From Nereocystis luetkeana (Eukaryota; Sar; Phaeophyceae; Laminariales; Laminariaceae), in contig JARUPZ010000008.1 in NCBI GenBank assembly GCA_031213475.1, positions 12,147,938 to 12,211,937 of the forward strand: a stretch of DNA of 64,000 bases, given 5' to 3'. Both the position numbers and the translations under genes were made by a program. The notes beneath the pieces are model-generated. The model made no database searches. It saw only the letters and a program-made list of their open reading frames with translations, and was not told where the DNA came from. Below, piece by piece: positions 5,101-8,100 of the stretch. Position 1 is the stretch's first letter. The number at the start of each line of letters is the position of its first letter.

Positions 5101-8100
5101 TTTTCCCATTTTTGCCCGTTTTTCCTGCCCTTTTCTCTCCGCTGTTCCCGTTTTTTTTTTCTCTTCGTTTTTTTTGTCTTGTTTTTTTTTGTGTGGGTTG
5201 TGGGACACAGATGATGGGGCGTGCCGGTCGACCGCAGTACGACAAAGAAGGCGAAGCGATCGTCATCACCCAGCACAGCGAGCTGCAGTACTATCTCAGT
5301 CTGAACAACCAGCAGCTGCCCATCGAGAGCCAGGTTACCATTGATAGTGGTTTTAAGCTTCGTTGCATGGAAACCGCTTTCTTACACGGATTGGAATTTA
5401 AACAAACGCACGCGACACATAAGTTTATATTTTTAGACCTGACAAGAAGAGGTTGTGGTGAGCTTTCAGGGTTTTTTACTCTAAAATAAACTTATTCCGC
5501 GATTTATCTGTGGTTCCCATAGCGGAAATGATCGAAATGTGGAGCTCCCACCAATCCTCCGCTTCCTCCCCATTCCCCGTCTCGGCCTCCCCCACGCGCC
5601 TATCGACCCTCTCCGCCCCCCCGCTTCCTCCTCATTCCCCGCTCAGGCCTGTCTTGTCCCAGGGCCATTTTTGATCATAATTTTCATGAACTTGCATTCC
5701 CTCACCCACGTACCGGTACGCACAAAACGGCTGAGCGTTACCGCTCCCTCCCCCCGCTCCACTTCTATACTCGTAGTCGTGAGCGGTGAGTGGTGTACCT
5801 CGCTGACCCCACCCCTACCCCCTCTGTATGTGCGCCTTCCGGATACTACTCACAACATTTATAGCGAGCAGTACGCGGTGTCGGTCGCTGATACTCCTAA
5901 TCTTCCCCCGCCGGCTCCTCTGCGAGCACGCCTTTCGCATGCTACCTTTGTTTTTGGTACCATCATTATGAGCAGCACGTGATGAACCTCGCTGAAAACC
6001 CCTTCCCCCCTGTCCCCCCCCTACCTGCACGCCTTGCGGCTACTATGAAATCGAGCAGTACGTGCTGAAGCTCGCCGACAACCTCGGCGCGGAGATAGTG
6101 CAGAGCACCTTTATGTATGCCTTCCTAACATTGTTACTGCAGTTATAACTGCGGTTTGTGAGACGCATGATGGAGCTCGCTGACCCCCCCCCCCCCCCCC
6201 CCTCCCCCAGCTGCATTGTAGGGGTGCGGGGGTCTATGGTTATACGAACAGCTATGCACGAGATTGGGTACATATCTCCTATCGAGTACCCCCCCCAGAT
6301 GCAAGAATGCCCGCCTCAAAAGCGGATCTGAGTAGAATCAACCTCGCCCTTCATGCGACTCGCCGAACACCTCGCAGCGCTTCGGGCTTGGTGCAAACAA
6401 GGTCTGCCTGGTCTGTGAAAACCCTGCATGCTCCGTCCCGGCATTGTAGGGGAGCGAGGGTTTATGGTTGGACGACTACGGCCATGCATGATATCGAGTA
6501 CCCCCCCCCCCGCCCCCCCTCTGTGCTCACGCCTTTCGGGTGTTATGAACACGAACAGACAGTATATACCGCCTCCAACCTTACTGCGGAGATCGTTTAG
6601 GGCACCTCCTGTTGGTGGCCTTGTTGATACTCCGCTATTGTTTATCAAAACTACTGCTGGTACTTTTCATAGTGAGAAAGAAGTACGAAAAGCTGGCTGA
6701 TACAACCTCTCTCCTCCCGCCCCCCCCCCCCCCCCCTCTCGCCCCCCCCCCCCCCCTATCCCCGCTTTGTTGACGCCTTTCGGATGTTATGAAACCGAGC
6801 AGTACGTGATGAAGCTCGCTGACAACCTCAATGCCGAGATCGTGCAGGGCACCGTTCAGAGCGTGGCGGACGCCGCCCAGTGGTTGGGCTACACGTATCT
6901 GTACGTGAGGATGCTTCAGAACCCCGCGGTCTACTCTGTACCGCACGACCAGCTCGATAACGACCCCGTTCTGCTTCAATTCAGGGTGGATTTAGTGAGT
7001 ATCAAAAGCGTCACGAGTATTTGTGCAAGTTTCGAGTCTTGATCCTCTGCCCCCCCCCCCCCCCCCCCCTCCTCGTCCCCTGTGCCCCCCTGTTTTTCTC
7101 TTTTTTTTTTTTTCTTGATCGTGCTTTAATTTAAATAGTTCTCCTGCTTTTTTTCCTTGTTTTTTCCTCTTTCTCTTTCGTTTTTTTTTCGTTTTTTTTT
7201 TGTTTCCTACTTTCATGAAAAGTCAAACTGTTGCAATGCTCTTAAGGGGAGTGGGGGAGTCGATTCCGTGAGTGTTCCTTCGGATAAATTTGCATACTTA
7301 TTGTGTTTCTACACCCTTTCCCTCCCCCTCCTTTTTTTCAACACTAATGTCGAAGTTCAATATTGCGACACATGAAAATATTCGGTACGGCATACTACTA
7401 AATATCGAAGTTCAATATTCCGACATATCGAAACCTTCGATACGGTATCCAACAGTGCTATCAAAGTTCGAGATTCCGACATATCGAAAGCTTTGACACG
7501 ATATCCACCACTAAGTGATATCGAAGACGATATTCCGATACATATAATTTTTCGATACGATATCCAACTGTCAGTAATTTCGAAGTTCGATATTCCGATA
7601 TATCGAAACTTTCGGTACGATATCCGACACTCAGTAATATCGAAGTTCAATACTTCAATATTCCGATGTGATACTGTAGGTCCACACAGCAGCTTCCATC
7701 CTGGACAAGACGAACCTCATCAAGTACGACAGGAGCGGAGGAACGTTTCAGCCCACAGCCCTCGGAAGGGTGGCCAGCTACTTCTACGTCACGCACCAGA
7801 CGATGGCGCGCTACAACGAGTACCTCAAGCCCACCATGAGCGACATCGAGATATTCAGGTGGGGTGGTTGGTTAGTCCGTTGGTTGGTGGGTGGCTTGAT
7901 TGGTCTATGGCAATTAGTTATCGGCTGCTTGATTGTCCGGCGAGTTGGTTGGTATACTGTTCGAATCCCGAACCCCGGCTGAACTCTGACTGTTCTCCCC
8001 TTTCCTACTTTTGTTTATCCTTGAAAAGAAGATCAGTCCTCCGGCGAAGCGGTTAGGTTTGAATCAAAGCTCATGCTTGCCACAGTCCCGCCTATGTGGA

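Follow-up and report, generated by a model that had tools for sequence, protein, structure and literature searches.

Intron 3 of the BRR2 gene carries an array of direct, degenerate copies of the exon 4 splice acceptor and of the first codons following it, and the copies are confirmed to be real. The array is a true sequence fossil explained by known processes, and it very probably arose through minisatellite-like local tandem duplications which happened to include the intron 3/exon 4 junction, exon edges having been caught by the duplications rather than targeted. On the basis of alignment scores and profile E-values, four copies (units B, C, D and D') are firm, a fifth one in register with them (unit A) is likely and two further ones (units E and E') are possible and weak.

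The host gene is BRR2/SNRNP200, coding for the U5 200 kDa helicase, as a query with exons 7 to 9 matched the human U5 200 kDa helicase chains at E 1.3e-58. With the human protein as a guide, 27 exons were placed between about 2090 and 35432 of the window, the whole stretch of 64,000 nucleotides that was analysed, exon 3 ending at 5333. The working exon 4 (6803-6994, plus strand, 192 nt) was delimited by its protein reading and its splice sites AG|TACGTG and TTTA|gtgagt; its acceptor reads ...GAGCAG|TACGTGATG, with the exon start at 6803, and is preceded by a C tract (6716-6760, plus strand) recognized by reading the sequence and by Tandem Repeats Finder. The unit at the exon 4 end of the array, which is either the source of the copies or shares their sequence, extends from about 6760 to 6856. 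Elsewhere in the gene, the introns at 10654/10655 and 28768/28769 apparently start with GC instead of GT.

Local alignment of the junction segment 6771-6870 against intron 3 was judged against 300 dinucleotide shuffles, in which the highest score reached at most 32 and the fifth highest at most 20. All units lie on the plus strand. The best junction copy, unit D (6029-6112), is identical at 70 of 84 positions (score 112) and retains the AG, its exon part (6059-6112) sharing 45 of 54 nucleotides with exon 4, while unit D' (6529-6619) is identical at 68 of 91 positions (score 74) and keeps the AG within GAACAG. Unit C (5928-6002; 48 of 55 aligned bases in a gapped alignment over 5928-6000, score 56) and unit B (5833-5901; 38/49 over 5833-5891, score 40) both keep the AG and run into an in-frame stop, and both possess extra nucleotides ahead of GAGCAG, about 20 in the case of unit C. 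The short matches comprise unit A (5779-5807, aligned over 5781-5807, score 30), which has lost the AG (GAGCGG), unit E (6166-6184, aligned over 6168-6184, score 30), which ends in GCTCGCTGA beside a C tract, and unit E' (6679-6709, score 29), immediately ahead of the long C tract that precedes exon 4.

The five strong units including the real junction were combined into a profile, which all of them match by construction. Run over the whole window, the profile recovered the real exon 4 junction at E 1.5e-25, unit D at E 1.2e-23 (6029-6111), unit D' at E 5.8e-19 (6529-6606), unit B at E 6.8e-12 and unit C at E 8.3e-12. Unit A followed at E 0.12 and unit E at E 2.6, unit E' was absent from the matches over the whole window, and one further match in the window lies on the minus strand at 49692-49668 (E 1.1). 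In 20 control regions, the profile gave three matches, none better than E 2.1. Similarity is thus found well beyond the best copy at 6028-6112, and of the at least five copies of the original prediction four are firm, the fifth being gained only if 5779-5807 is accepted.

The units are of two forms, a short one (D, D' and exon 4) and one with about 20 or more additional nucleotides ahead of GAGCAG (A, B, C, E and E'). The exon start is copied as had been proposed, to an extent smaller than the first 25 or so codons; the two longest copies hold some 18 to 22 codons and the rest 7 to 9, and no copy holds more than 65 of the 192 nt of exon 4. The 18-letter exon 4-like protein reading noted for unit D after its intact AG is correct; from 6059 the frame is open for 29 codons and then meets a stop. 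The acceptor-equivalent AG is retained in four of the seven copies (B, C, D and D'), and hypothetical splicing at their own AG leads to an in-frame stop in all four firm copies, after 36, 30, 29 and 13 codons, respectively. On the exon side, the units end at CC adjoining a C tract or where a C tract would begin. A C tract, which had been predicted beside every copy, was read at five of the seven unit boundaries, with none after 6112 or after about 6606.

With respect to spacing, the exon-equivalent starts of B, C, D and D' lie at 5872, 5976, 6059 and 6559. The acceptor-to-acceptor step is 104 from B to C and 83 from C to D; D' follows D after 500, with a dispersed repeat and unit E in between, and the exon 4 acceptor follows that of D' after 244, with unit E' in between. 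The uninterrupted unit is about 80-105 bp long. The adjacent direct units are similar in length and significantly alike, as local tandem duplication would leave them. As the units are too diverged and uneven for Tandem Repeats Finder, which detected no regular array of units and in this region reported just the C tracts at 6706-6763, the array is termed minisatellite-like and not a clean minisatellite. D and D' both depart from exon similarity at GGCACC|T, and their mutual alignment continues beyond this point; the shared exit point together with the alignment running past it suggests, without proof, that D-E and D'-E' represent a duplicated pair.

The dispersed repeat between units E and D' (6213-6501, plus strand) comprises two copies, one partial and one fuller, both of which terminate in a C tract. 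Among the 66 matches listed from a search of the own 465 Mb eukaryotic genome, a lower bound as 40 of 4913 candidates were scored, no second copy of the array was found elsewhere, and 62 are restricted to window positions 6213-6524 with about 68 to 97% identity; of the other four, three cover the C tract near 6716-6759 alone and one is the window itself. At seven matching loci (L002-L008), the dispersed element ends in a C run (a G run on the other strand). The simplest reading, though not proved, is that the dispersed repeat was inserted later into a C tract of the array. The repeat, which has many copies in this genome and GTACTCGATAGGAGA-like tandem ends, is also present at 13719-13782 in reverse orientation and may belong to a longer element (L002, L003). 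In addition, the acceptor region of exon 10 (12215-12274) contains CTGCATGATATCGAGTACAACACCCCC, which closely resembles the dispersed repeat's end, and the exon 10 acceptor may sit inside an old copy of it.

Exon 4 is not the only copied edge of BRR2. The mirror case proposed for exon 2 holds, as its 3' edge is present in three plus-strand copies (3481-3567, 3620-3695 and 3880-3940; scores 74, 112 and 47; null maximum 37). The 5' edge of exon 7 (10383-10507) has a plus-strand copy at 10127-10251 (93/118, score 94, null maximum 38), the exon part of which (10211-10251) is identical at 35 of 41 positions, and the 3' edge of exon 1 (2174-2234) has one at 2673-2729 (44/56, score 50, null maximum 33, plus strand). 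Candidate edge copies of exons 8 and 26 were set aside, not rising above the null in a longer test (27 versus a maximum of 35, and 32 versus 31). Intron 4 contains a 60-nt tandem array (7339-7652) that extends nearly to the acceptor of exon 5 (7679); the final 60 nt of the intron match this array (score 54 versus 25).

Outside BRR2, a sample of 20 kinesin regions with 62 exon matches provides one clear and one doubtful recurrence. The clear one is locus L041 (4748-5159), where the 3' edge NLVDLAGSERQKDTQ|gtgagg is repeated twice downstream with scores of 124 and 65; the first downstream copy reads NLVDLAGSERQKDSQ ahead of the same donor. In the doubtful one, L057, the acceptor region and its T tract are repeated twice upstream, the copied exon part being at most 15 nt because the acceptor position is ambiguous. 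Two other edge matches are not convincing exon copies, as that of L058 is a T run and the strong match of L053 is an intronic repeat only loosely aligned into the exon.

According to the original prediction, duplications seem to start at exon-intron junctions; such a preference might come, for example, from pyrimidine tracts or paused splicing-coupled structures. Four junctions of BRR2 (exons 1, 2, 4 and 7) are clearly copied, and when the exon edges were compared with 60 control chunks taken from other introns, 10 of the 52 edges scored above every chunk, roughly ten times as often as by chance, which shows that exon edges carry more local copies than unrelated sequence. Intron-internal tiles, however, carry them at least as often. 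With a duplicate copy defined by a score of at least 40 that is more than 8 above a 30-chunk null, for 60-nt tiles with the copy within the same intron, copies were found in BRR2 for 44/421 intron-internal tiles as compared with 3/52 exon-side edges, 7/52 intron-side edges and 0/28 exon-core tests. At looser cut-offs, the respective numbers are 79/421, 5/52, 11/52 and 0/28, and for tiles simply above the 30-chunk null 117/421, 10/52, 14/52 and 2/28. In the kinesin regions, 28/644 noncoding tiles, 4/124 edge tiles (L058 and L053 included) and 0/158 core tiles have a copy as defined, and 48/644, 6/124 and 0/158 at a looser cut-off. By the same score, no whole exon core was copied in either set.

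Pooling of these tests, which combines differing tile definitions and takes as kinesin edges the edges of HMM matches and not mapped splice sites, gives 7/176 edges with a copy, L058 and L053 again included, versus 0/186 cores (Fisher p 0.006) and versus 72/1065 noncoding tiles, the latter being no difference (p 0.18). Once the two doubtful edges are removed, 5/176 edges remain versus 0/186 cores (p 0.026) and versus 72/1065 noncoding tiles (p 0.04), now in the direction of fewer copied edges. A second approach examined BRR2 and the 20 kinesin regions together (about 205 kb), where 74 complex duplicate pairs collapse into 65 blocks that cover 9,409 of 202,321 bases. Duplicate blocks span 4 of 176 junctions versus 7.5 expected from random shifts (sd 2.7; P for at least four, 0.95) and, in BRR2 alone, 3 junctions versus 3.7 expected. 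Of 29,195 intron bases 2,698 fall within blocks, and of 3,165 exon-interior bases 87 do. The apparent targeting of exon edges therefore vanishes once intron interiors serve as the control, and initiation at junctions, despite the copied junctions and a mild enrichment of homopolymer runs at duplicate ends, is very unlikely. Local tandem duplication throughout the introns seems to catch exon edges, and copies inside exons are presumably removed by selection.

The reading that we favour, local tandem duplication which incidentally included the junction, best accounts for the direct orientation of the units, their location on the intron side, their degeneracy, the lost reading frame of the four firm copies and the presence of the dispersed repeat within the array. 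The first duplicate might have been created when the exon start (GAC|AACC, GGCACC) was joined illegitimately to the C tract at short CC matches; such microhomology is attractive as a first step because the exon-side unit ends lie at CC by the C tract. Slippage or unequal exchange between C tracts may subsequently have added more units, and the dispersed repeat would have entered one of the C tracts later. The copies would have persisted because they are intronic and did not disturb the junction joined to the exon body, and would have decayed without selection, with the same duplication process probably acting in introns all over this genome. C tracts were discarded as a driver of duplication in general, the association being only weak; homopolymer runs lie near only 30 of 296 duplicate ends versus 19.5 expected (sd 4.6, null maximum 34, P 0.02), and the C-tract step is for this reason proposed locally and not as a general rule.

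On the other hand, the copies could have been kept as decoy or poison acceptors, whereby splicing into them would place a stop in the BRR2 message and lower its output. The retention of the AG in four of the seven copies and the in-frame stop of all four tested fit with such a role, and the C tracts could act as pyrimidine tracts. Maintenance of this kind is nevertheless quite improbable, as identity in the exon part of unit D (45/54) does not exceed that of the copy as a whole (70/84), copy lengths vary, the AG is lost in several units and exon 4 lacks a clear branch-point pattern that could serve for comparison. Loss of the branch point as the cause of silent copies was also considered and rejected, since TNAY-type motifs 15-45 nt upstream of the 26 acceptors are not enriched (5/26 versus 6/26, 3/26 and 5/26 in control intervals). 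A broader proposal holds that local tandem duplication would seed introns with complete junction modules (pyrimidine tract, AG and first codons), that decayed decoys would accumulate beside exons and that some BRR2 copies with an intact AG might be poison acceptors through which this core splicing factor tunes its own message; taken as a whole, it is hardly probable. That unit D serves as a functional start of exon 4, either alternative or mutually exclusive, is, despite the 18-letter reading after an intact AG, extremely unlikely, as it contains just 54 of the exon's 192 nt, its frame meets a stop after 29 codons and a cassette to the only nearby GT noticed (GTATGC, 6115) would be 56 nt long, not a multiple of three.

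The array is a clear fossil record of how tandem duplication can place spare splice junctions inside introns, from which alternative acceptors or altered positions of introns could arise. If the copies were used in RNA, the interest would be greater, because BRR2 is a core splicing helicase.

Among known systems, tandem exon duplication, including mutually exclusive exons, also places copies of exon sequence in a neighbouring intron. The intron 3 copies differ in containing the first 7 to 22 codons alone, in the lack of an exon 3' end and in the presence of stops, and thus do not combine both splice sites with an open frame as a whole duplicated exon does. A literature search, with subscription papers largely outside its reach, returned no paper on decayed exon-edge arrays, which is weak evidence of absence. 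Tandem genomic duplication has been described as giving rise to new introns and to novel positions of introns (PMC3443670, PMC2891723), and one of the two papers cites frequent small tandem duplications including exonic sequence in fly populations (PMC2891723). The common denominator with the BRR2 array is the duplication of gene sequence with splice signals, which yields extra splice sites (PMC3443670, PMC2891723). In intron gain as described there, an exonic AGGT segment is duplicated to create a new intron, whereas in BRR2 the intron was already there, and its acceptor recurs within it together with the start of the exon; the two ends of intron 3 do not stem from one duplicated exonic segment, because no copy of the exon 3 edge was found in this intron, where its score of 18 lies below the null mean of 20.4 (null maximum 28). 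The array also resembles minisatellite-like intron duplication, with which it shares direct adjacent units of about 100 bp, their degeneracy and one or more boundaries in simple sequence, and from which it differs in that the BRR2 unit includes a splice acceptor and the first exon codons, the last unit being the working exon.
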